Assembly: GCF_001468285.1 (NCBI RefSeq)
Contig: NZ_LNSB01000030.1
Span: 1 to 64,000 of the forward strand
Length of the DNA stretch: 64,000 nt
Source: Sphingopyxis sp. HIX
GTDB taxonomy: Bacteria; Pseudomonadota; Alphaproteobacteria; Sphingomonadales; Sphingomonadaceae
Direction: 5' to 3'
The notes below the pieces were generated by a model. That model had not been told where the DNA came from and made no database searches. It worked only from the letters and a program-made list of their open reading frames with translations. The position numbers were made by a program, and so were the translations under genes. Below are positions 6,106 through 21,117 of the stretch, piece by piece. Positions within the stretch are counted from its first letter, which is position 1. Each line of letters begins with the position of its first letter.

Positions 6106-6179
6106 GCGGGTATAGCATAGTGGTAATGCTCTAGCCTTCCAAGCTAGCTAGGCGGGTTCGATTCCCGCTACCCGCTCCA
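6106..6179 (+). tRNA. tRNA-Gly (anticodon TCC)
   Basis: The acceptor stem GCGGGTA (6106-6112) pairs with TACCCGC (6169-6175), and a genome-encoded CCA follows at 6177-6179. The anticodon arm is CTAGC-CTTCCAA-GCTAG with anticodon TCC at 6138-6140, reading GGA. The T-arm is GCGGG-TTCGATT-CCCGC. The 3' half serves as the integration site of the island that follows. Confidence 0.97.
6159..6172 (+). other. attL core of the genomic island
   Basis: CGATTCCCGCTACC, inside the T-arm and acceptor stem of tRNA-Gly, recurs exactly at 21104-21117. The 60 or so bases after each copy also align at roughly two-thirds identity by eye with one 3-base gap, including a shared TTCGTCTGGACA. An integrase gene starts 218 bp downstream. 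This is the normal geometry for a tRNA-targeting tyrosine integrase. Confidence 0.8.
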
Positions 6180-6390: not shown

Positions 6391-7608
6391 ATGGCTTTGA
6401 CTGACGTGGCAATTCGGAACGCAAAACCCGGCCCAAAGCCGATAAAGCTGACGGACGGCGCGGGCATGTTTCTGCTGGTGACGCCCGCAGGCGGGAAGCT
6501 TTGGCGGCTCAAATATCGCATCGATGGGCGCGAGAAACTCCTGTCTATCGGGGCTTATCCTGAGATCGGACTGAGCGATGCCCGCAAGCGACGCGATGAA
6601 GCGCGGGCGATGATCGCCTTGGGCAAAGATCCTTCCCGCGAGAAGCAGCGCGATAAAGTGCGTTCACGTATACAGGCGGCGGATACGTTCACCGCCATCG
6701 CTGACGAATATTGCGCCAAGCGCAGGCGTGATGGTGAGAAGGGGTGGGCGGCAGCGACGGCGACCCGGAGTGAATATCTCCTGTCTCTGCTCAATGGCAG
6801 CATTGGACGATTGGCCATTTCTGAGATTGAGCCCGCCGACATTCTGGGTGCAATTCGTAAGATCGAAGGCAAGGGCAATCTCGAAAGTGCGCGGCGTACC
6901 CTGCAATTGGCAAGCATGGTGTTCCGGTATGCTGTGGCGACCGCTCGCTTGGGCTCGGACCCCACTCGCGATCTACGCGGCGCACTCACCGCGCCAACGG
7001 TCACGCACTACGGAGCCATCACTGATGCACGCCGTGTCGGAGAACTGCTGCGTGCGATCGATGGCTATGATGGGCAGGGGCATACCCAGCTGGCAATGCA
7101 GATCGCGCCGCATGTATTCGTCCGCCCAGGCGAGTTGCGCCATGCTGAATGGAGCGAGATCGATCTAGACAATGCGCTTTGGACCATCCCGGCCGAAAAG
7201 ATGAAAATGCGCAAGGCGCACCTTGTGCCGCTGTCACGTCAAGCGTTGTCGTTGTTCAAAGAAATGCGATCGATCACTGGCCCGAGCGGGTACGTTTTTC
7301 CGTCGATACGGTCTCGATCGCGGCCAATGAGCGAAAACACTATCAATGCGGGTTTGCGGAGGCTGGGTTATACCAGCCGGGAAATGACCGCGCATGGGTT
7401 TCGGGCGATGGCTTCGACTCTCCTAAATGAATCAGGAAAATGGCATCCAGACGCCATTGAGCGGGCGCTGGCTCACGCGGATGGAGACAAGGTGCGCGCC
7501 GCTTATCACCGCGGCGCCCATTGGCAGGAGCGCGTTGAAATGGCGCAGTGGTGGAGCGACTATTTGGACTGCCTACGGCTAGAAGCGGGGGCTTCGGTCG
7601 TTGGTTAA
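6391..7608 (+). CDS. int: Tyrosine integrase, P4/DUF4102 type
   Basis: 405 residues. The N-terminal arm-binding domain (LTDGAGMFLLVTPAGGKLW, then SIGAYPEIGLSDAR) is typical of prophage P4-like and island integrases. A central core-binding domain and a C-terminal catalytic domain follow, with Arg245 (VRPGELR), His335-x-x-Arg338 (HGFR) and nucleophile Tyr372 (AAYHRG). It cuts and rejoins DNA at the tRNA-Gly att site. The frame is open from 6304, but the ATG at 6391, with GGGGAGG upstream at 6373-6379, gives the family's usual MALTDVAIRNAKP start. All catalytic residues are present, so it should be active. Confidence 0.95.
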   Translation: MALTDVAIRNAKPGPKPIKLTDGAGMFLLVTPAGGKLWRLKYRIDGREKLLSIGAYPEIGLSDARKRRDEARAMIALGKDPSREKQRDKVRSRIQAADTFTAIADEYCAKRRRDGEKGWAAATATRSEYLLSLLNGSIGRLAISEIEPADILGAIRKIEGKGNLESARRTLQLASMVFRYAVATARLGSDPTRDLRGALTAPTVTHYGAITDARRVGELLRAIDGYDGQGHTQLAMQIAPHVFVRPGELRHAEWSEIDLDNALWTIPAEKMKMRKAHLVPLSRQALSLFKEMRSITGPSGYVFPSIRSRSRPMSENTINAGLRRLGYTSREMTAHGFRAMASTLLNESGKWHPDAIERALAHADGDKVRAAYHRGAHWQERVEMAQWWSDYLDCLRLEAGASVVG

Positions 7609-11126: not shown

Positions 11127-12767
11127 ATGTTGGCCGAAAAGCTACTAATCGAGCAGCGCGACCGATACGTTGCGGCCGTCTCCGCAAGCTGGCTCGGCTA
11201 CGAACGCGAACTCCTGATATCGTTGGTCCGTGCGCTCGACGTCGCTGCCTATACCAATCGATACGCAAGGCGACCGGACACGACGCACGCCTGGCTTAGG
11301 TTGCGCGGCGCGGCTACATCCCTTCGCCCACTGCTCGGAGCCGTGCGCGGCATGCCAGGAACTATCCCATGGTTTCCCAGCAACCCTAACCTTTCTGCCG
11401 CATTCGACAACCATCTGTTGAATTGTGGGCGCTTCGCAGTGGCGATCCGGTGGGCAGCGATGGAGCGCTACGGCATTGCCACTGCGAGGGTCTTGGCGAG
11501 CGACAGGATCGCTATCGAGTTCTTGCCCAACGACGAGGAGATGGCCGAGACGGCCCTGGGGCACGCGGCTAAGAATCGTTCGCGGGAGGATGCCCGGGCG
11601 CTGTTTCCAAACCTCTCTGGCGAACTACCCGAAGTTCGCCGGAGGCTGAGGCGATACGGCAAGGCAGCGATGGGATGGTTCATCGGCTACGACAACGACG
11701 ATTTCCTGATCGGCCACTATCGATCGCAGGCCAGGATAGAGGCGGCCGGAATAATCGAAGCCGAAGCGTTGCCGCCGACCGGCGTCATCGGCGGTCGGCC
11801 ATTTGGGGAATGGACCGAGGCTTCGACCAACGCCCTCGGCACCGTCCTGCACCATATCGATGCCGCCGGCATGCTGCATCGACGCAAGCCGAAGCTCGAC
11901 ATGCGAAACCTCATGACCGTTTACGCGCGACGAGGCGACATTCTTGATGTGCTTGAGGAGCGGGGCGACGACGCGGCGCGCGCGCGCCAGTTGATGGAAG
12001 GGCTGACGCTCGACGCCGATGGGGCCGCCTATAGCGAGGCGCGGCACGAGATTCCGCTGCCCTACTACATCGATGCCGGCGAGGACTTCGTACTGCTGCC
12101 GATGTTCGGCGGGTTCTTGAATCCCCACGCTGGCCTGCTCGAGCACTTGCGCCGCAACTATCGCCGCGACTGGGACAGTATCGTCGACGGTCGCGAGAAT
12201 ATATTTCGAAGCGAGCTTCGGCAGCTTCTTCCGGAACCGAGATACATGGTACTCGGAACCGGCCTCAAGCTGCGTCGCAAGGACGGCTCGACGCTAACCG
12301 ATGCCGATGCGGTCGTGCTCGACCACGAGACCGGCGACGTCGTGTTCGTCCAGCTGAAGTGGTACGACGTCTACGGGTTCAGCCTTGCGGAGCGGGAAAG
12401 TCGCCGGGTCAATCTGCTGACGAAGGGCAACGAATGGGTCGCGAAGGTCCATGCCTGGATCGACGGGCGTACCTCAGCGGAGATTGCCAAGGCCTATGGA
12501 TGGGGCGAGGCCAGCGACGCTGTGCCCCGCATGCTGGTGATGGCTAGGCATTCCAGTCGATTTGCCGGCGAGGGGCGATATGACGCTCGCGCTTCGTGGA
12601 CGAGTTGGCATTCCTTGACCGAAGCAGTGCGCGATCCCGCTTGCGAGGGCTTCGTTGCCGCGATGTCGCGACCGCCGCACTGCGGTCCCAGCCAAGGGAA
12701 TCCCGATGGCGCTTCGGTCTTCGACCTTCCGGGGATCACCGTCGAGGTGCGGACGGCGCGCATATGA
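11127..12767 (+). CDS. Large protein with a PD-(D/E)XK nuclease-like C-terminal part
   Basis: 546 residues. The first 350 are helical with no domain I recognise. Between about 360 and 430 the pattern is Glu363, then Asp394 in DADAVVLD, a short hairpin, then Gln409-Leu-Lys411 in VFVQLKW. This is the Glu, Asp, (E/Q)xK order of PD-(D/E)XK nucleases with the Gln variant. The family covers restriction enzymes and repair nucleases. The assignment is by motif only; the gene is next to Vsr, GHKL and methyltransferase genes, where a DNA-cutting effector would fit. No separate restriction enzyme gene for the methyltransferase is visible elsewhere in the island, making this the best candidate. Confidence 0.6.
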   Translation: MLAEKLLIEQRDRYVAAVSASWLGYERELLISLVRALDVAAYTNRYARRPDTTHAWLRLRGAATSLRPLLGAVRGMPGTIPWFPSNPNLSAAFDNHLLNCGRFAVAIRWAAMERYGIATARVLASDRIAIEFLPNDEEMAETALGHAAKNRSREDARALFPNLSGELPEVRRRLRRYGKAAMGWFIGYDNDDFLIGHYRSQARIEAAGIIEAEALPPTGVIGGRPFGEWTEASTNALGTVLHHIDAAGMLHRRKPKLDMRNLMTVYARRGDILDVLEERGDDAARARQLMEGLTLDADGAAYSEARHEIPLPYYIDAGEDFVLLPMFGGFLNPHAGLLEHLRRNYRRDWDSIVDGRENIFRSELRQLLPEPRYMVLGTGLKLRRKDGSTLTDADAVVLDHETGDVVFVQLKWYDVYGFSLAERESRRVNLLTKGNEWVAKVHAWIDGRTSAEIAKAYGWGEASDAVPRMLVMARHSSRFAGEGRYDARASWTSWHSLTEAVRDPACEGFVAAMSRPPHCGPSQGNPDGASVFDLPGITVEVRTARI

Positions 12768-12801
12768 TCGTTAGACCGTAGCAGCGCCGGCGGAGCCGAA
12801 C

Positions 12802-13065
12802 CTATTCCCTGCGCTCCGTGATCGCGTCGACTATGGCGGCCCAAGTCGCCTGTGCGACCTCGCTTGCTCGGGCTTCTTCGGCACCTGAGATGGCGGAAGC
12901 GCCACGCGACAGCGCAACGTCGCCTATCTTGCGGATGCGCCGCAATGCTGTCCTTGCCTTCTCGATCGAGATGGTCCTTCGCGTTTGGATCTCGGGCGTG
13001 TTTTCCCACGCCTTCCAGGCCATCGGGTCGATTTCCCGGGCCATGAGTTCGAGTTCCCTGCCCAT
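12802..13065 (-). CDS. Small helical protein next to Vsr
   Basis: 87 residues, charged and probably all helical; no family recognised. It has a basic centre (EKARTALRRIRKIGD) and an Ala-rich amphipathic C-terminal half. AGGAGAG stands 8 bases before the ATG. It begins 12 bp after the Vsr stop codon on the same strand, so the two are almost certainly one transcript. It could be an accessory subunit, an inhibitor or an antitoxin-like partner. I cannot choose between these. Confidence 0.6.
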   Translation of the reverse strand: MGRELELMAREIDPMAWKAWENTPEIQTRRTISIEKARTALRRIRKIGDVALSRGASAISGAEEARASEVAQATWAAIVDAITERRE

Positions 13066-13077
13066 AGTTGTACTCTC

Positions 13078-13527
13078 CTAGCGGTCACCTTCGCTCGCAG
13101 TTCCGGACCCGAGTTGGCGGGCATTGCTACGTGATCTTAGTGCCGATTCCAGGGCCTCGGCAACGCGATCGATGTCTCGGGTTTCGCATTCCCAGACGAT
13201 GATGACCTGCCATCCCATCGCCTCGAGTTCGGAGGCGTTGCGGCGATCCCTCTGGATATTCCCTTCAAACTTTGCTTGCCAGAAGTCCTGCCTGGTCTTG
13301 GGAACGGTTGCGACCTTGCATCCCGCATGCCGGTGCCAGAAACAGCCGTGGACGAAGATGGCGGTACGATACTTAGGCAACGCGATATCTGGCTTGCCTG
13401 GAAGGCGGCCAACATGGATGCGGAAGCGGTACCCGAGCCGATGGAGTAAGCGGCGAACCGCTATTTCGGGCTTGGTATCCTGCGAGCGGAAGCGCGCCAT
13501 CAGGCGACGCTTCGCTTCAGGTTCCAT
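13078..13527 (-). CDS. vsr: Very short patch repair (Vsr) mismatch endonuclease
   Basis: 149 residues, the usual Vsr size. The family nicks next to T:G mismatches that arise when 5-methylcytosine deaminates, so it normally travels with a cytosine methyltransferase, as here (16795-18036). Visible landmarks are SQDTKPE near residue 15, LPGKPDIA with catalytic Asp47, FVHGCFWH (residues 58-65) with zinc-site Cys and His, Cys70, and VWECE (111-115). The frame also opens with an ATG at 13542, but GGCGGAG before the ATG at 13527 supports the shorter form. It diverges from the GHKL gene across about 50 bp. Confidence 0.93.
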   Translation of the reverse strand: MEPEAKRRLMARFRSQDTKPEIAVRRLLHRLGYRFRIHVGRLPGKPDIALPKYRTAIFVHGCFWHRHAGCKVATVPKTRQDFWQAKFEGNIQRDRRNASELEAMGWQVIIVWECETRDIDRVAEALESALRSRSNARQLGSGTASEGDR

Positions 13528-13578
13528 GCTCGACTCCGCCATCGTAGCTGCTATCGTATTGCTGGGAGGGAGTAGTAG

Positions 13579-15912
13579 TTGGCTAGGTACTTTCGCATCA
13601 GTTCGTCCCTCAAGGACATCATCGGTCGCGACCTCATTACGAATGATTTCGTGGCTGTCTTCGAACTGGTCAAGAACTCATTCGATGCCCATGCGCGCCG
13701 CGTGGATATCGTCCTAGCGGGTGGTACGCTGTGGATCGTCGATGATGGCAAGGGTATGTCCGAGGAGGACCTCCTCGAAAAGTGGTTGTTCGTTGCCTTT
13801 TCTGCAAAGGCGACGGGCGAAGAAGATGATGGGCTCTCGCAGGATTTCCGCGACAAGATCGCGGTGAGGCGCGGATATGCCGGAAACAAGGGCATCGGGC
13901 GCTTCTCTTGTGACCGCCTGGGCAAGTCGCTCGTCCTGCACAGCCGTCAGGAAGGGGAGCGAGCATGCAACCGGCTAATCGTCAACTGGGAGGACTTCGA
14001 GGGCCGGCCGGAAGACGAGTTCGGTTCGATCGGGGTTGCCGTGGAACCTGCCAGCGCACTGCCGCCGGTTCCGGACGTCTCCTTGCCCCGCGACGGAACG
14101 ACGATCCTTGAGATATCGTCGCTACGGGAGGTCTGGGACCGAAACAAGCTGCTCAAGCTAAAGGACTATCTGGCAAAGCTCGTCGATCCCTTTGCGCCGA
14201 AGGGCGAGATGGAGGTTTTTCTCCACGCTCCTGCCGAGCGTGAGGGCGACAAGGCTGCCAAAGGCAAGCCCGAGGCGATCGTCAATGGGCCGGTTGCAAA
14301 CACGATCCTCGACGTCCTCGAGGGCAAGACGACGCAGCTTTCGGTGCAGCTGGAGGGTGGTGTCATCCACTCGACGCTCCGCGACCGGGATCGGTTGATC
14401 TATAGGGTCAGGGAAGAAAATCCCTATCCCGAGCTGGAGGGCGCGCAGATCTCAGCCGATCTCCTCTACCTAAACCGGAGCGCGAAGGCGACCTTTACGC
14501 GCCGGATGGGGATAGAGCCCGTAAAGTTTGGTTCGGTATTCCTATTCCTCAATGGCTTTCGCGTCTTTCCCATTGGTGAGGAAGGCAATGACGAGTTCGG
14601 CATCGATCGGCGAAAAGCGCAGGGCTATGCCCGCTATCTCGGAACGCGCGACCTGCTGGGTCGCATCGACATCGTCGCTCCTCAGCGCTTCTTTATGGAG
14701 GCCTCGAGCCGCGACAACGGGCTGGTCGAGGGGCCTCGCACCGAGGCGTTGCAACAGTTGGTGCTACGCAACCTGCTCACGCGGCTCGAACGATATGTCG
14801 TCGACGTAACCTGGGCGGACTCGCTTGATGCCGAGCGTTCGGATGCAAGTGGATTGACCACCGACGATGCGCGGTCGCGCATTATTCAGGTCGTCAAGAA
14901 CCTCGTCGGTCGCAAGGGCGTCGAGTTGCTCGAATATGACACCGAACTGATCGATACCATCAGCGACCGCGCCGGGGAGTTCGAGCGGGCAATGGAAGGC
15001 CTCTCCGTCGTAGCAGAGCGCACTGGCGATGTGCGCCTGCTCGAGCGGATCGAACGCTCCAGACGCCGCTATGCAGAATTGAATGCGGCCGCCGCGGAGG
15101 CAGAGGCGAAGGCTAAGGAAGAAACTCGCCGGCGAGCTGCAGCGGAGGCACAGGCACGCGCCGAGGCGAAACGAGCCGATGATGCAGAACAAAAGTTCAA
15201 GGACGAGCAGCGGCGATCGCTTTTGCTCACGAGCTTGGAAGCGCGCGATAGCGAGACGCTCACGCTTCTCCACCACCAAGTCGTGATCTACGCGACTGCC
15301 ATCCAAGACGCGGTAGCGAACAATCTCCGCGCTATTGCCGATGGCGATCCCATAGATCCGGTAGAACTAGCTGCTGACCTCGAACACATCAGCTTCCAGA
15401 ATAGCCGCATTCTGGCCGTTACGCGATTTGCGACGCAGGCGAATTTCAAGCTCGATGCCGACCAGGCGAACATCGACATCGTCCAGTACATGTCCGAATA
15501 TGTCATGAATGTTGCCTCGCTCTTCGAGGGCGAGCGATTTGCCACGTTTGATGACGGCGGCAACGCGATTGTATCGAAGTTCAAACCGATCGATATCGCG
15601 ATCGTCATCGATAACCTCATGAGCAACGCGCGCAAGGCGAAGGCCACCAAGATTCACTTCGAGGTGCGTCGCGTCCACAAGTCATCCGCGCTCGAGATGC
15701 TCATCGAGGACAATGGCCGTGGCATTGGCGATCGCGTCGATCGCGCCCGGATTTTCGACAAGGGATATAGCGGCGCAGAGTCCGGCTCCGGTCTAGGGTT
15801 GTACCATGCAGCTCAAGTCCTGTCGCAGATGGGGGGCTCGATCGCGCTCGATCCCGAACACGAGGGTAGGGGAACAAGATTCATCGTCAGGCTTCCGCGG
15901 CAGAAGGATTGA
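13579..15912 (+). CDS. Double GHKL ATPase: MutL/Hsp90-like N-terminus, coiled coil, histidine-kinase-like C-terminus
   Basis: 777 residues with two separate GHKL ATP-binding domains. The first is MutL/Hsp90/MORC-like: ELVKNSFDA with Asn33, DDGKGM (55-60) and GNKGIGRFS (102-110). An S5-like region follows. Residues about 493-547 are a charged Ala/Glu/Arg coiled coil. After LHHQV (His565/566), which resembles the phospho-acceptor helix of a kinase, comes a histidine-kinase-type ATPase: Asn679/Asn683, DNGRGIG (711-717) and SGSGLGLYH (735-743). The TTG start is backed by GGGAGGGAG at 13564-13572. The receiver-like gene begins 16 bp downstream. Role inferred: an ATP-driven switch or sensor in a defence module. 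Confidence 0.85.
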   Translation: MARYFRISSSLKDIIGRDLITNDFVAVFELVKNSFDAHARRVDIVLAGGTLWIVDDGKGMSEEDLLEKWLFVAFSAKATGEEDDGLSQDFRDKIAVRRGYAGNKGIGRFSCDRLGKSLVLHSRQEGERACNRLIVNWEDFEGRPEDEFGSIGVAVEPASALPPVPDVSLPRDGTTILEISSLREVWDRNKLLKLKDYLAKLVDPFAPKGEMEVFLHAPAEREGDKAAKGKPEAIVNGPVANTILDVLEGKTTQLSVQLEGGVIHSTLRDRDRLIYRVREENPYPELEGAQISADLLYLNRSAKATFTRRMGIEPVKFGSVFLFLNGFRVFPIGEEGNDEFGIDRRKAQGYARYLGTRDLLGRIDIVAPQRFFMEASSRDNGLVEGPRTEALQQLVLRNLLTRLERYVVDVTWADSLDAERSDASGLTTDDARSRIIQVVKNLVGRKGVELLEYDTELIDTISDRAGEFERAMEGLSVVAERTGDVRLLERIERSRRRYAELNAAAAEAEAKAKEETRRRAAAEAQARAEAKRADDAEQKFKDEQRRSLLLTSLEARDSETLTLLHHQVVIYATAIQDAVANNLRAIADGDPIDPVELAADLEHISFQNSRILAVTRFATQANFKLDADQANIDIVQYMSEYVMNVASLFEGERFATFDDGGNAIVSKFKPIDIAIVIDNLMSNARKAKATKIHFEVRRVHKSSALEMLIEDNGRGIGDRVDRARIFDKGYSGAESGSGLGLYHAAQVLSQMGGSIALDPEHEGRGTRFIVRLPRQKD

Positions 15913-15927
15913 TAGGAAGGGAGGGGG

Positions 15928-16860
15928 ATGCGGCTCGAATTCAAGGTACTCTGGTTCGAGAACCAGATGGACGGCGTCCAGCAAGCCGTTACCGGCATGC
16001 GACGCGAACTCGCCAAGCACGGCCTGTTGCTCGAACTAGACCAGCAAGGAGACGCGTCCAGGCTCGATGAGCTGTCTGCCTATCAGGAAAAGTTCCACGA
16101 CTATGACTTGGTCGTCGTCGACTGGGACCTGGGTGAAGGCCAGCCGAAGGGGGACGAGGTCGCCAGGCGCATTCGCAACAGCTTCGGGTTCACCGACATC
16201 ATCTTCTACAGCGGCCAGGCCACCGACCGGCTCCGCGACATGGTCAAGGATCAGGCCATCGATGGCGTCTATTGCGCACGGCGCAACGAACTCCGGGCCA
16301 AGCTGATTGACCATGTCAATCATGTCGTCGAGCGCCTCTCACGGCTCGAGGCCATGCGGGGGTTAGCTGTCGTGTCGGCCGGACGGGCGGATGACCAAAT
16401 GCGCGAGGTGGTTCGGCTCGCCCATGCGAAGATGGATGCCAAGGCACAATCCGAACTGGTTGCTGCCATCGATACCAAGGTAGCGGGTGCCGCTGGGAGC
16501 CACGCCAAAGCCTATGGCAAGCTCAAGGACCTTGAGGGTCGCTTGGGTAGTCGCGCACTTAACAGCGGAATCCTGCACGAGGTCGCGACCCTCTCGGTGC
16601 AGAAGGTCGTTGCGGTCCATCCTGCATGCGAGTCGCACCTCGCAGTCTTGGGAACTTATGTCGAGGAAGTTATCCAGCCGCGGAACGCGCTCGGCCATAT
16701 CGTCGAGACGCGGGATGTCGATGGGTGGGTGATCAATTACGCAAGTGGCAAGCAACTCAACAAGGTCGGGCTATCGAAGATGCGGAAGGATCTTTCACGC
16801 CATCTCGACAACTTCGCTGCGATCTCCGCCGTTCTGAGCGAGGCTGCCGAGGGCAAGTAG
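15928..16860 (+). CDS. Receiver-like (REC) protein with unknown C-terminal domain
   Basis: 310 residues. The first 125 or so look like a response-regulator receiver: LWFENQ replaces the acidic pair (Glu11-Asn12), VVVDWDLG gives a candidate phospho-acceptor at Asp65 or Asp67, and FYSGQ gives the Ser/Thr position (Ser95). The conserved Lys seems replaced by Arg (VYCARR). The C-terminal 185 residues are helical with no DNA-binding motif I recognise, so this is not an ordinary transcription factor. It is cotranscribed with the double-GHKL gene. The last 66 bp overlap, on the opposite strand, the end of the methyltransferase gene. Confidence 0.75.
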   Translation: MRLEFKVLWFENQMDGVQQAVTGMRRELAKHGLLLELDQQGDASRLDELSAYQEKFHDYDLVVVDWDLGEGQPKGDEVARRIRNSFGFTDIIFYSGQATDRLRDMVKDQAIDGVYCARRNELRAKLIDHVNHVVERLSRLEAMRGLAVVSAGRADDQMREVVRLAHAKMDAKAQSELVAAIDTKVAGAAGSHAKAYGKLKDLEGRLGSRALNSGILHEVATLSVQKVVAVHPACESHLAVLGTYVEEVIQPRNALGHIVETRDVDGWVINYASGKQLNKVGLSKMRKDLSRHLDNFAAISAVLSEAAEGK

Positions 16861-18036
16861 GACTTCGCCTATCGCCTCGCCAAGCAGGGGCGGGACTGCG
16901 TTTCCGACTTGCGTATATCGAGGGCACGCTTCGCGGCGCCGATCTCCACCGGTCGTGTATGGACCGAGGAATTCGAACGAGTCAGGGAAGGACTGGAGGC
17001 GCGCGCATTCTCGCACCGTCAGGATACGCGGTTCCTGATAGTGTACCATGTCATCTGGTAGCGTCGTGACCGTGCAGGAAGGCTTGTCGGCCGCCAACAA
17101 GGTGAGCGAGCGCTTCTGCATTCCAAGACGGCTCCGATCTTCGGACGAGAGCGGAACGCCTGAGCGGCACGTCTTCAGGATCTTGTTGAACCGCTCGGTG
17201 ACGATCCTCGAATGCCGTGGGAGGCGAAGCCCCGTTGGACTACCGGACGCACCGTTCCGCATTAGCGCGAGATAGCCGGTCGCGGCAGGGGGTACAGCGT
17301 AGTCGATCTCCATGAATCCGCCGTCGCCGCCGCGATAGGGGACGAGGGTGGCGCCTCTTGTCTTGAGGTCGCCAATTGCCTCCGCAACGCCAACTTCCTT
17401 GTCGATGGGCAGCCCGCGCGATTCGAGGAATTGGCGACGGCCGACCCGCATGCGCAGGAACGGATCTATGCCCTCTAGCCCCTTGTCGCGCGAGGCAACC
17501 ACGAAGAACCTCGGCCTGCGTTGCGGAACGCCCCATTGAGAGGCGACGAGCATCTCACTCCAGACTCGATATCCCATTCCCTCGAGTTCCTTGGTGACGT
17601 GCGCGGCATAACTACCTGCATCGTCAAGTTGCATCGTCATAAAGCCGCGGACATTCTCGAGCAGCACGAGTCGCGGTTCGACGAGGCGAAGGAAATCGAG
17701 ATAGTGCCGGACCATGCGGTTTCTTGGATCGTCAGCCCGACGCCGGCCCGCGGTCGAGAATCCCTGGCAGGGTGGGCCACCGGCGACCAGATCTACGTGG
17801 CCCCTAAGCTTCTTGAGGTTCCGGCGGTGGTCGCTGATCAGCTGCTCAATGCGCATGGCTTCATGGGGAAGCCATTCCGGCCACGCGCCGGCCTCGCGAA
17901 TCAAGTTGTGCGAATAGGTAGCGAAGGCGTCAGGGTGCGCTTCAACGGCGAATAGCGAGGTCCATCCTGCCCTTCGGAGGCCGAGCGACAGTCCCCCGCA
18001 ACCTGCAAACAGGTCTATGAATGTCTGCGTACCCAT
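16795..18036 (-). CDS. dcm: DNA (cytosine-5-)-methyltransferase
   Basis: 413 residues with the C5-methyltransferase motifs in order: motif I FIDLFAGCGGLSLGL (6-20), motif IV GGPPCQGFS with catalytic Cys90, motif VI LLENVRGF (125-132), motif VIII QRRPRFF (172-178), a target-recognition region, then RLQSFPDSF and motif X QVGNAVPPLL. It methylates cytosine in a sequence I cannot predict. The ATG at 18036 is preferred to a TTG at 18048 because GGGGGA precedes it. Vsr at 13078 is the matching repair enzyme. No dedicated restriction enzyme gene is adjacent. Confidence 0.93.
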   Translation of the reverse strand: MGTQTFIDLFAGCGGLSLGLRRAGWTSLFAVEAHPDAFATYSHNLIREAGAWPEWLPHEAMRIEQLISDHRRNLKKLRGHVDLVAGGPPCQGFSTAGRRRADDPRNRMVRHYLDFLRLVEPRLVLLENVRGFMTMQLDDAGSYAAHVTKELEGMGYRVWSEMLVASQWGVPQRRPRFFVVASRDKGLEGIDPFLRMRVGRRQFLESRGLPIDKEVGVAEAIGDLKTRGATLVPYRGGDGGFMEIDYAVPPAATGYLALMRNGASGSPTGLRLPRHSRIVTERFNKILKTCRSGVPLSSEDRSRLGMQKRSLTLLAADKPSCTVTTLPDDMVHYQEPRILTVRECARLQSFPDSFEFLGPYTTGGDRRREACPRYTQVGNAVPPLLGEAIGEVLLALGSLAQNGGDRSEVVEMA

Positions 18037-18260
18037 GCGTTCCCCCAACTGCGGCGAGCACCAAGCGCCACGGCGCCCTGGTGTCCAGGAGCGATGGGGT
18101 ACAAGTCAAGCGAAAAATGAAGGGCGTGCGCCAAATCTCTTACCGCCGGGGGCGAAAGCTGCCGGACGGCAAACGGCCAGTCGTATGGCAAAAGTGCCGT
18201 TATACCATGAGCGCTGCGTAAGGTCGTTTTGCCGAGTTTGCTGGTACAGCCGGCCTCTGT
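18037..18260. other. Noncoding gap upstream of the methyltransferase gene
   Basis: 224 bp that must hold the methyltransferase promoter (minus strand) and the end of the lipoprotein transcript. I looked for a second copy of the C-box-like element of 18909-18943 and did not see one. A 66-residue open frame on the plus strand (18021-18221) has no start signal or homology cue. Confidence 0.5.
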
Positions 18261-18878
18261 TCATTCATCGGGTAGGACCGCTTCGTCGGCCGCCTCGGCC
18301 TTTACCCGGCGTTGGAACTCCTCGACCTTTTTGTCCTCCTCCTTCATAAGTTCTTGCCAGTTTCTCGGACCTTGTGGATCGACTTTCGGAAGAGGTTCCG
18401 GATACGGTCCGACATCTCCTTCAACCAACTCGGTCTCAGCCGGGGCGGCAAAGGGTGCCGGCGCGGGTGCAGGCGCCATCGCGACAGGCGTGCCACCTAT
18501 GTCCGCCCAGGTGATGAACCTGTCCGGACGAGCCATGTCCACCGCCTGTTCCCCAATCTTGCGGATGTCGCCATGCTTGGTCACGCAGAAGTGCATCTCC
18601 CGGCCCGAGGTCATGTTGTCGCCGAACTCCGAAAAAATTCTCGCTTTGATGGTCCGATCTTCGGCATCGTTGTTGCAGAAGGTCAGTGACTCCGATTCCA
18701 TGCTCGCGAGGTGGTTTTTCACCAAGCCGGCGCGCGCCACCAAGTCGTTGCGCGTGAGGATGTCGCTTGCGATCCGCTTGGCGGGTTCGTCCGTTTGAAA
18801 ATCGACCGCGGAATCGGGAGGGCCTGAACATCCCGATATCATCACGACGACCGCTAACGACCAAATGTATCTGTTCAC
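18261..18878 (-). CDS. Predicted lipoprotein of unknown function
   Basis: 205 residues from the GTG at 18878. A hydrophobic leader ends in the lipobox VMISGC (Cys near residue 17), so it should be lipidated and held at the inner or outer membrane. The centre has Cys in TFCNND and HFCVTK, a likely disulphide pair. A Pro/Ala-rich linker leads to a charged helical tail. An ATG at 18884 touches the Shine-Dalgarno AAGGAG directly, whereas the GTG is 6 bases away, so GTG is the better start. It diverges from the XRE gene over the C-box-like operator. Unknown role; its presence between methyltransferase and regulator is odd. Confidence 0.65.
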   Translation of the reverse strand: MNRYIWSLAVVVMISGCSGPPDSAVDFQTDEPAKRIASDILTRNDLVARAGLVKNHLASMESESLTFCNNDAEDRTIKARIFSEFGDNMTSGREMHFCVTKHGDIRKIGEQAVDMARPDRFITWADIGGTPVAMAPAPAPAPFAAPAETELVEGDVGPYPEPLPKVDPQGPRNWQELMKEEDKKVEEFQRRVKAEAADEAVLPDE

Positions 18879-18908
18879 TATCATCTCCTTCAGTGTCTGC
18901 CCGCACTT

Positions 18909-18943
18909 TGTTGAGTATACTCCGTGGATGAAAAGTCTACACT
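18909..18943. promoter_or_regulatory. C-box-like operator upstream of the XRE regulator
   Basis: GAGTATACTC (18913-18922, perfect palindrome) runs into CCGTG, followed by AAAGTC and TACACT. The spacing and the central CCGTG resemble the paired C-boxes of restriction-modification controller genes (two GACT-n3-AGTC repeats). TACACT (18938-18943) could be the -10 box, giving a very short leader for the ATG at 18961. Confidence 0.45.
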
Positions 18944-18960
18944 GGCATCAGGTTGCCGGT

Positions 18961-19182
18961 ATGGCTTTGAGGACCATATTGGCTCGGAATCTGCGCAGCC
19001 TGCGGTCGGCCGAAGGGCTGTCGCAGGAAGAGTTGGCGCATCGCGTCGGGATTGACCGGACCTATGTGAGTGCGCTGGAGCGGGAACGCTACGCCGCTAC
19101 GATTGACATGGTTGAGCGTTTGGCCGCGGCGTTGAACGTCGAACCGCTGCAGCTTCTGGACGTTGGTTCCAGCGCACGATGA
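18961..19182 (+). CDS. XRE-family regulator, C-protein-like
   Basis: 73 residues, almost entirely one XRE helix-turn-helix domain: NLRSLRSAEGLSQEELAHRV, then the recognition helix IDRTYVSALERER. Small XRE proteins of this length are the controller (C) proteins that time restriction-modification gene expression, and also generic repressors. The frame is open from 18865, and ATG 18928 is possible, but 18961 gives the usual C-protein start and leaves the palindromic operator outside the gene. It is divergent from the lipoprotein gene and convergent with the DUF3768 gene. Regulation of its own promoter and the divergent one is likely. Confidence 0.8.
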   Translation: MALRTILARNLRSLRSAEGLSQEELAHRVGIDRTYVSALERERYAATIDMVERLAAALNVEPLQLLDVGSSAR

Positions 19183-19188
19183 CCGCCT

Positions 19189-19548
19189 TCAATATTCTGA
19201 AACCAGCATCACCGTCAGCACGCGAGACGTAACGGCCTCGTCCGCTGGGTCAGGGGATCCGAACTTTCTTTCCAGATCATAATAATCGATCTTCCAAAAC
19301 ATATCCTCGCCGAACAAGCGCAGGTCTCCGAAATCGCGCTCGCCGTGGGGGTCATTTTCCTCATCGAACGCCGTGTATTTCGACAGCGCCAATGCAAGAG
19401 CGAGCGGGTCGAAGTCGGGAAGGGCGCTCACGCCCGCGGTGACCATCAGGCTCCCGCCTTCGCCGCGTTGTCGCAGCCTGTCGTTGAGCCTCGCGATCCG
19501 TTCTGCTCGCGGCGGCGTCGCGCATGTGCAGCCGTTCTCGGAATCCAT
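19189..19548 (-). CDS. DUF3768-family protein
   Basis: 119 residues matching the DUF3768 pattern as I know it: RIARLNDRLRQ at the start, MVTAGVSALPDFD, NDPHGERDFG, FWKIDYYD and a closing TSRVLTVMLVSEY. The family is common on alphaproteobacterial plasmids and islands and has no assigned function. AAGGAG stands 9 bases before the ATG. It lies downstream of the glycosylase gene on the same strand, so it may be the last gene of a recombinase-glycosylase-DUF3768 unit. Confidence 0.8.
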   Translation of the reverse strand: MDSENGCTCATPPRAERIARLNDRLRQRGEGGSLMVTAGVSALPDFDPLALALALSKYTAFDEENDPHGERDFGDLRLFGEDMFWKIDYYDLERKFGSPDPADEAVTSRVLTVMLVSEY

Positions 19549-19611
19549 AGTCCGTACTCCTTCTTCTGCTGATGAAATGTCTGCCGCAAACTCGGCGCTC
19601 AGTTGACGACG

Positions 19612-20232
19612 CTAGCCTTCGTCCCGTGGAACCAGCTTGCTGGGATTGAATGCTGCCTTCCAGCCGATGCGCTCGTAGGTGGTGGAGTTGAGCAAGCCTT
19701 CGGCACATGCTCGCCACAGCACCGTATCGATTGTCGCGACCCGATAACCCGTCTCGCGAGAGAGGCGCTGGCACAGCCGGTGGGTGGTAGTGCCGTCTCG
19801 GCGGGCAAGGCGTTCCAAATGCACGTCCGGCTTTGCGACATCCGCGCCGAGATTCTTCGCCAAGTGATAGCTGGTGACGGGACCGATCCAGGGGATCCGC
19901 TGCAAGAATTTGATCGGGTCTGTTGCAAACAGATAAGCAACGAACAGACGCTCGCGATCACGCCAAATCTTTTGAATGGCTTTGGCTTTTCCGGGATGCC
20001 CGAAAACGCGCCTTACGCGCTTGCCGCTCAGCAGCGCCGCCATGCAGGCTTCGTAGATCGGCTCTGCGACACTGTTCTTCATACCCGAATTGCAAATCAC
20101 GTAGATCGCATGATCAGCAAATTCTTCTGGGCTCGTGGCCGGCGGAACGGTTTCCGACCAGTCGATGTCGTGGGCGAAGCCGGCATTTCGCAGATGCAAT
20201 TCCATCCGGCGAAATCGCTTCAAGGTGATCAC
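19612..20232 (-). CDS. HhH-GPD-type DNA glycosylase
   Basis: 206 residues from a GTG start. The second half has the helix-hairpin-helix signature FLQRIPWIGPVTSYHLAKNL followed by KPDVHL, where the Asp matches the catalytic Asp of the HhH-GPD family (Nth, MutY, AlkA, TAG). There is no Cys cluster for an iron-sulphur centre. These enzymes remove damaged or modified bases; the target here is unknown. GTG at 20232 overlaps the recombinase stop (GTGA), so the two are translationally coupled. An internal ATG at 20205 is an alternative start. It is unusual to find a base-excision enzyme coupled to a recombinase in an island. Confidence 0.7.
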   Translation of the reverse strand: MITLKRFRRMELHLRNAGFAHDIDWSETVPPATSPEEFADHAIYVICNSGMKNSVAEPIYEACMAALLSGKRVRRVFGHPGKAKAIQKIWRDRERLFVAYLFATDPIKFLQRIPWIGPVTSYHLAKNLGADVAKPDVHLERLARRDGTTTHRLCQRLSRETGYRVATIDTVLWRACAEGLLNSTTYERIGWKAAFNPSKLVPRDEG

Positions 20233-20807
20233 AGCATCTGGATCAATTTGCGCTGCGCCTCTCGGTCGCCTTCGATGTAGCGCTCGGTGGTAGTAAGGGC
20301 GCGATGGCCCGCAAGCTCCTGGATGTCGCGTAACGACCCGCCGGCCTTGGTCAGCAACCTTGCAGACTGCGTAATGAAGGTTCGGCGCCCCGAATGCGAA
20401 GAGCATCCATCAAAACCGAGTTGGCGGTACAGGGCGGTGAACCAGTTTACGATGCTCTTGGCCGACATATGACCGCCTCGCTGCGATCGCACGACCGGCC
20501 CCGCCGTTGGGCGTCCCTGAGCAGCTCGAAGTGTAGCCAGGACTGCTTTCAATTCCGAGTGAAGCGGTACGTTGCGCCCCCGACCGTTCTTCGCGATGGA
20601 GCCGCTGACCGCGATGATGGTAGAGATACGACCGTCGGGTCCGGTCACCATGTCCCAGCTCAAGCCTGCGATCTCGCAGGCCCGAAGTCCTGCCCTAAAG
20701 CTGAGCAAGACGATGCATCTATTTCGCTGCGCCGCGCCTCTTTGCCCTACATGCTCCAACACACGGCCAAGCTCTCGCGGCGTCAGCACCTTCGCTGACG
20801 TTCCCAT
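20229..20807 (-). CDS. Tyrosine recombinase, short XerD-like form
   Basis: 192 residues that form only the catalytic domain: Arg42 (GLRACEIAGLSW), His138-S-G-Arg141 (HSGRRTF), His168 (GHRALTTTERY) and nucleophile Tyr177. The N-terminal core-binding domain found in Xer proteins is missing, so it resembles the small catalytic-domain-only integrases of islands and plasmids. The ATG at 20807, with AAGAG ahead of it, is preferred to the frame opening at 20861. All active-site residues are in place. It sits at the right border of the island and might act with the P4-type integrase or on its own element. Confidence 0.85.
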   Translation of the reverse strand: MGTSAKVLTPRELGRVLEHVGQRGAAQRNRCIVLLSFRAGLRACEIAGLSWDMVTGPDGRISTIIAVSGSIAKNGRGRNVPLHSELKAVLATLRAAQGRPTAGPVVRSQRGGHMSAKSIVNWFTALYRQLGFDGCSSHSGRRTFITQSARLLTKAGGSLRDIQELAGHRALTTTERYIEGDREAQRKLIQML

Positions 20808-21103
20808 AACATGCTCTTGTTCTGAAATTGCGGGCCAAATGCCGCGCAGGCAGTATAGCAAATTTCTGTAGGGCGGTCAAATTATATCAATTTATCAATA
20901 TGTTAGTTTCAGATTCGTACGGGTGATCGCGCGTTGAGCACTTGATATTGTAGGCGTGACGTGGAAGGAGGCGGCCAAAGCTGCGTTCGTCAACGGCCGT
21001 CTTAGTCCGCCTTCATTCAGCAAGTTTGGGGGTAGGATTGGGGGTATTTTGATTCATCGTGCTTGTGATTGTATAGGATAATTGGGGTTTGTAGCAGGGA
21101 ACG
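20808..21103. other. AT-rich right border of the island
   Basis: No gene seen. It contains an AT-rich stretch (20880-20915, with TTATATCAATTTATCAATAT) that should carry the recombinase promoter on the minus strand, and the GGGGGTA motif pair at 21027-21046. Confidence 0.6.
21027..21046. promoter_or_regulatory. Right-end GGGGGTA pair, candidate integrase arm site
   Basis: TGGGGGTAGGATTGGGGGTA matches the left-end string at 6293-6312 (TGGGGGTATGATTGGGGGGT) in 17-18 of 20 positions, in the same orientation. It lies about 60 bp from the attR core. Confidence 0.55.
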
Positions 21104-21117
21104 CGATTCCCGCTACC
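21104..21117 (+). other. attR core of the genomic island
   Basis: CGATTCCCGCTACC, identical to 6159-6172. The preceding GTAGCAGGGAA can pair with TTCCCGCTAC, so the T-arm-like hairpin is kept although the flanking bases differ from the tRNA. TCCA follows directly, as at the tRNA end minus three bases. Confidence 0.8.

Follow-up and report, generated by a model that had tools for sequence, protein, structure and literature searches.

The subject of this analysis is a cluster of six adjacent genes at positions 11127-18036 of a 64,000-nucleotide stretch of Sphingopyxis sp. HIX DNA (contig NZ_LNSB01000030.1, positions 1 to 64,000; here called the window), which an initial annotation had put forward as a candidate defense module. 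All six genes are present. They encode, in order, P546, a protein of 546 amino acids (aa) and predicted PD-(D/E)XK type (11127..12767, forward strand); an 87-aa open reading frame (ORF) downstream of vsr (12802..13065, reverse); Vsr, a very short patch repair endonuclease of 154 aa (13078..13542, reverse); GHKL2, a double GHKL ATPase of 777 aa (13579..15912, forward); a receiver protein of 310 aa (15928..16860, forward); and a C5 cytosine DNA methyltransferase of 417 aa (16795..18048, reverse). The gaps between them all fall within 12-36 bp, being 34, 12, 36, and 15 bp in order along the cluster, and the receiver and methyltransferase genes are convergent, with a 66-bp overlap. The methyltransferase length is that given by a TTG start at 18048; an alternative ATG lies at 18036. 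We propose that the cluster is a mobile defense module resembling restriction-modification (R-M) systems, in which a phosphorelay may release an RNase, a reading that we judge to be a little short of an even call.

The Genes of the Cluster

The identities first assigned to the parts stood up well. Vsr (Pfam Vsr, 7.7e-28; NCBIfam TIGR00632, 4.8e-42, above cut-off) and the methyltransferase (Pfam DNA_methylase, 2.1e-51; NCBIfam TIGR00675, above cut-off; motifs PPCQ at residue 92 and ENV at residue 131) are firmly recognized, Pfam detects both ATPase domains of GHKL2, and the receiver is recognized weakly. Both ingredients of a type II R-M system, a methyltransferase gene and a candidate endonuclease gene, are in the cluster. 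In agreement with the view that no existing model describes the set, PADLOC has none for P546 or the receiver, and its matches to the remaining proteins were limited to methyltransferase, Vsr, and weak ATPase ones. The 87-aa ORF had been counted as part of the module, but its membership could not be shown. It has no meaningful family score in Pfam, PADLOC, or NCBIfam, and we rejected it as a module part on the grounds that its only Pfam match is at chance level (DUF5817_CT, 0.076) and that tblastn across the collected loci matched only copies of the window itself. A genuine gene could still lie here behind vsr, but nothing links it to the module.

P546 and Its Association with Methyltransferase and Vsr Genes

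The window P546 protein has no match in Pfam, PADLOC, or NCBIfam. We aligned 31 members of its family, using 27 of 29 loci, three of them with two copies, and leaving out L077 and L079; among the locus rows, L079 was merged with L066, L052 overlaps L083, H43 and H44 are the plasmid of one strain, and the phage match H46 was left out. R356-E357, T391-D392, D394, and Q409-L410-K411 are invariant across the alignment. An AlphaFold2 model (pLDDT 83.0, pTM 0.82) has a core made of helix 356-367, strands 380-383, 389-399, and 404-411, helix 420-446, and strand 466-473. PD-(D/E)XK enzymes are defined by E, D, and (D/E/Q)xK on an alpha-beta core, and E357, D392, D394, and Q409-L410-K411 supply these residues in P546. 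The alignment and the structure model support the PD-(D/E)XK call of the initial annotation and place P546 in a putative PD-(D/E)XK family of its own, unmodelled and spread over several phyla.

Searches with all 31 members returned a scatter of weak matches. Pfam gave 13 families, each in at most three members (best 0.0025); PADLOC gave PD_DExK in 3 of 31 (best 0.0083), RmrA in one (5.4e-4), and three others in one each; and PHROGs gave two families, with one member each. We rejected membership of P546 in a known family, given the lack of window-protein matches in Pfam, PADLOC, and NCBIfam and the scattered, weak matches of the aligned members in Pfam, PADLOC, and PHROGs. Because no Pfam, PADLOC, or PHROGs model covers the family, model-based defense finders would miss it. 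Against PDB sequences, a five-member profile found two unrelated-looking matches (0.0086 and 0.79) and the 31-member profile none up to an E value of 10. A fold search of viral structures listed PD-(D/E)XK nucleases among weak matches, none at E up to 0.001. The best PDB fold match was 9wuf, "Upx" (E 9.9e-4, probability 0.93); we claim no homology between P546 and Upx, because the TM-scores are 0.21 and 0.12 and the rmsd is 26, and a literature search on Upx found nothing relevant.

The genes around P546 point to a link with cytosine methylation. Of 28 distinct loci, 16 have a C5 methyltransferase, a Vsr, or both within about 10 kb of P546, compared with none of 20 control stretches (Fisher p 2e-5); Vsr is near P546 in 13 of the 28 and, again, in no control. 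Among the plasmid and whole-genome loci outside the 28, Vsr is near P546 in L048, L049, L050, L051, and L089, and not in L088. A viral-contig scan with P546 gave three loci, all of them without methyltransferase, Vsr, GHKL2, and receiver. For systems that combine cytosine methylation with Vsr, the P546 family offers a candidate nuclease.

Several P546 loci have features of their own. In Rhizobium sp. TAL182 an IS66-family element splits the P546 gene (L048, 13794-18246). The 12.4 kb around P546 are 99.2% identical between L066 and L079, recorded as Roseovarius amoyensis and Enemella evansiae, which indicates recent transfer or contamination. Three sphingomonad loci (L080, 7689-11248; L081, 7596-11149; L082, 7590-11149) each have a back-to-back pair of divergent P546 copies. 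In two distant genomes, P546 is preceded by a 232-235-aa protein without a Pfam match that shares a similar YCG...DHxPSK stretch (L055, 8419-9126; L062, 342-1040).

The GHKL2-Receiver Pair

GHKL2 matches Pfam HATPase_c_3 at residues 24-136 (3.8e-21) and HATPase_c at residues 670-775 (1.4e-22), and the same order of an N-terminal HATPase_c_3 and a C-terminal HATPase_c is seen in 12 of 12 aligned relatives. An H-box-like HHQ places histidines at 565 and 566, and in the alignment HQ at this box is common to the window, L026, L032, L033, and L034. HEF_HK (PF19191) has no match in the window protein at E up to 1 and is weak in 2 of the 12 aligned members (best 0.0022). Among 299 genomes from the phylum, 18 matched the 777-aa query, and in many of these the match covered just one of the ATPase halves. 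The GHKL2 profile also matches 3 of 20 control stretches, so GHKL2 matches alone were not counted as evidence. Neither GHKL2 nor the receiver had a relative in scans of viral contigs. A plasmid of Stenotrophomonas rhizophila (L043, 6658-13038) has a methyltransferase-GHKL pair some 2-3 kb away from a gene with the annotation TnsA.

The receiver matches Pfam Response_reg at 0.0019, below cut-off, and Response_reg_2 (PF19192) at 0.007 (16.9 bits, cut-off 27), a family that its Rhizobium relative in L048 passes at 4e-17. In searches that covered 385 genomes from the class and 298 from the phylum, six genomes, including the window's own, had strong matches, and seven more had weak ones over roughly 90-110 receiver positions; plasmid searches with three receiver queries found no match. 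D65 is kept in all six family members. The five full-length members all end in RNxL(A/G)H, which in the window is R252-N253-x-L255-x-H257. Their C-terminal halves are otherwise divergent, the other members having 16-24% identity to the window's, and the eight invariant columns include R252, N253, L255, and H257. An invariant Rx4H appeared in 0 of 20,000 shuffles, which speaks for conservation and not for catalysis, because shuffling destroys all homology.

HEPN domains have as their strongest feature an Rx4-6H motif with N, D, or H after the arginine (Anantharaman et al., 2013; PMC3710099). Every one of the five full-length receivers has this arrangement, with a polar residue after R, and Pfam found no DNA-binding output domain in the receiver. 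All told, we consider the C-terminus slightly more likely than not to be HEPN. RNA cleavage is the likely output of the receiver because its C-terminal half carries this HEPN RNase signature and has no recognized DNA-binding output. The initial annotation had missed both the HEPN-like motif and the standing of the PD-(D/E)XK protein as a separate family that goes with methyltransferase/Vsr pairs.

Recurrence of the Gene Set

In all six family genomes, including the window's, a double GHKL gene and a C5 methyltransferase gene are found next to the receiver gene; in L028 only the end of the double GHKL gene is present, at a contig end. The methyltransferase gene is convergent with the receiver gene in L028, L032, and L033, as it is in the window. 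Vsr lies near the pair in three of the six (the window, L032, and L033); of the remaining three loci, L028 and L034 are cut short. The expectation that the parts would recur together was borne out in three other loci that contain all five, P546 included: a Rhizobium plasmid (L048), a Pirellulales metagenome-assembled genome (L057), and Sphingobacterium (L060). In L057 the five genes are consecutive and run in one direction. Between the receiver and vsr genes of Sphingobacterium there is a 211-aa protein without a Pfam match (L060, 16085-16720).

In L032 (7068-18918; genome G575), the kinase-receiver-methyltransferase-Vsr module stands beside genes for TnsE, TnsD/TniQ, a TniB-like protein, and a Mu-type transposase. 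Because these adjoining genes are of Tn7 type, the module looks like cargo of a Tn7-like element.

Comparison with Known Systems

The pairing of a kinase-like GHKL protein with a receiver had been described in the initial annotation as uncharacterized. This does not hold, because the pairing with C5 methyltransferases and Vsr was published as a prediction by Bellieny-Rabelo, Pretorius, and Moleleki (2021; PMC8011034), who put the linkage between receiver-like and GHKL proteins at 91.6% over 644 genomic regions. Their architecture comprises HATPase_c_3, HEF_HK, and HATPase_c, with C5 methyltransferases upstream and Vsr in 20 genera, Sphingomonas and Rhizobium among them; the conserved residues named are a core His followed by Glu or Asp and, in the receiver, an Asp, an acidic pair, and a beta-5 Lys. 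The window shares with these elements the N-terminal HATPase_c_3 and C-terminal HATPase_c in one soluble protein, the adjacent receiver-like gene, and a nearby C5 methyltransferase and Vsr. It differs in that the kinase has no HEF_HK match and has HQ for H-E/D, and in that the receiver, which has no beta-5 Lys, scores under the cut-off of Response_reg_2. We found no mention of a HEPN-like C-terminus or of P546 in the available text of that paper. The window copy is a diverged relative of the published HEF_HK/Response_reg_2 pair. Within the reach of these searches, two things are new: the P546 family, together with its methyltransferase/Vsr link, and the HEPN-like receiver end in this clade. 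Text searches of openly licensed PubMed Central papers turned up no experimental study of such a kinase-receiver pair.

Other systems resemble parts of the cluster. The wider R-M operon context of paraMORC and MORC proteins was described by Iyer, Abhiman, and Aravind (2008; PMC2292703), with an SFII helicase in about 70% of MORC neighborhoods; the window differs, since no helicase family was found among the 16 window proteins scanned (6.4-20.9 kb). HEPN proteins were proposed as a suicidal second line of R-M systems, and HEPN domains fused to paraMORC ATPases were described (PMC3710099). The receiver is like these RNases in its Rx4H with N after R; it is unlike them in that the motif sits on a receiver encoded beside the GHKL protein, an arrangement not found in the available text of that source. 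For the Shedu-type phage-defense protein VcSduA (PMC12137116), too, control of a PD-(D/E)XK nuclease by a GHKL ATPase has been suggested, although VcSduA is a single fused protein with DUF4263 and comes without methyltransferase, Vsr, or receiver. DefensePredictor (PMC13092281) lists HATPase and REC among its predicted-system domains.

A Proposed Mechanism and Its Alternatives

Together, a marking enzyme, a repair partner, a cutter-like protein, and a signaling pair whose receiver ends in a motif typical of RNA-cutting toxins suggest a system that guards DNA and has a second line of defense built in. From the domains, conserved residues, and recurrence described above, we infer every functional step. 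The C5 methyltransferase would mark the host's own sites, the established function of its family. Vsr proteins initiate repair where deamination of 5-methylcytosine has produced T:G mismatches, and the Vsr of the cluster would likewise repair the mismatches that arise from methylation. P546 is a likely DNase against unmarked DNA. The N-terminal, MutL/MORC-like ATPase of GHKL2 may sense or clamp such DNA, and its kinase-like C-terminal half may signal to the receiver encoded next to it, whose RNA cleavage would form the second line, halting growth when restriction fails. This mechanism makes use of all the conserved features. In its most specific form, the proposal is of an R-M system wired to a cytoplasmic histidine-kinase relay with a HEPN-RNase response regulator: a MutL-like clamp would sense foreign or failing DNA, phosphorylate the receiver, and so free RNA cleavage, while DNA would be cut by a new PD-(D/E)XK family common to C5-methyltransferase/Vsr systems from bacteria and from one archaeon. 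We put this full version forward only tentatively, as less likely than not. The published kinase-receiver pairs near C5 methyltransferases came without a known output, and a HEPN-type receiver site predicts receiver-gated RNA cleavage. If true, the HEPN receiver would join two-component signaling to growth arrest inside an R-M system.

A number of observations weigh against this reading. Neither a methyltransferase nor Vsr lies near P546 at 12 of the 28 loci, L070 has a second PD-(D/E)XK protein, DUF4420, and P546 is absent from the retrieved flanks of the five nearest kinase-receiver relatives, of which L028 and L034 end early. The kinase half of GHKL2 has HQ instead of H-E/D. In the receiver, the acidic pair consists of two acids in five of six members and is E11-N12 in the window copy, and the beta-5 Lys, its placement read from the alignment, occurs in none of the six. 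The sixth receiver (L034) is 151 aa long and has no C-terminal half; it ends at a stop codon that lies 110 bp short of the end of the contig. Six receiver members gave no match to the HEPN families in Pfam up to E 10, and a Pfam HEPN search of the strain's own genome did not report the receiver, giving two matches elsewhere and none to HepT. Among 13 ORFs just downstream of more distant GHKL2 genes (three being second genes), 12 contain neither R[NDH]x3H nor R[NDH]x5H, L036 having the one match. A single-sequence structure model of the receiver was uninformative (pLDDT 38.3).

The nuclease and the signaling pair are separable, because P546 is absent from the retrieved flanks of the five nearest pairs and 12 of 28 P546 loci have neither methyltransferase nor Vsr. 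These same facts, and the position of the window P546 gene on the other strand, past vsr and the 87-aa ORF, would fit two independent modules in one island: a complete published kinase-receiver/C5-methyltransferase/Vsr module, and P546 as a separate defense nuclease. We consider this explanation possible but doubtful, since P546 meets the kinase-receiver/methyltransferase/Vsr set in four loci from different phyla or orders (the window, L048, L057, and L060) and the five genes are consecutive and co-directional in one of them, L057.

It is quite unlikely that the GHKL protein is instead the restriction ATPase itself, of BbrUII/HgiDII type or paraMORC-like, with the receiver as a switch that binds nucleotides or proteins and takes part in no phosphotransfer. 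NCBIfam restrict_BbrUII does match GHKL2 residues 15-199 (4.7e-17, far below the curated cut-off), the receiver's acid pair is degraded and its lysine missing, and kinase-free receiver domains have been proposed for other conflict systems (PMC8195603); yet GHKL2 keeps a second ATPase domain and an H-box-like His, and D65 is invariant in all six receivers. A modification system, epigenetic or solitary, in which the pair regulates methylation or R-M activity without any restriction taking place, strikes us as improbable. The 2021 authors did raise control of R-M systems by the pair as a speculation (PMC8011034), and C5 methyltransferases with a Vsr-like protein and no nuclease exist (PMC12907096), but the receiver has no DNA-binding output domain that Pfam could find, and P546 retains all of its active-site-like residues.

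The Island and Its Neighboring Genes

The mobility of the proposed R-M-like module is suggested by its surroundings. Ahead of the six-gene cluster lie a tRNA-Gly (TCC) gene found by ARAGORN, the probable integration site (6106..6179, forward), and a P4-type tyrosine integrase gene (6391..7608, forward; Pfam Arm-DNA-bind_3, Phage_int_M, and Phage_integrase). G+C is 48-64% over 7-21 kb, compared with 61-72% in most of the remaining window. The glycine tRNA, the integrase, and the low G+C argue for a mobile island. A 14-bp direct repeat of the 3' part of the tRNA gene occurs again at 21104..21117 (forward) as a possible far end, and the island may therefore span about 6.1-21.1 kb. Between the integrase and P546 (7773-11106) are genes for three proteins of 260, 386, and 267 aa without a meaningful family score in Pfam, PADLOC, or NCBIfam. 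Toward the right-hand boundary of the island (18865-20861) there are an HTH_3 regulator, a DUF3768 protein, a family-less 264-aa protein, and a second, short integrase.

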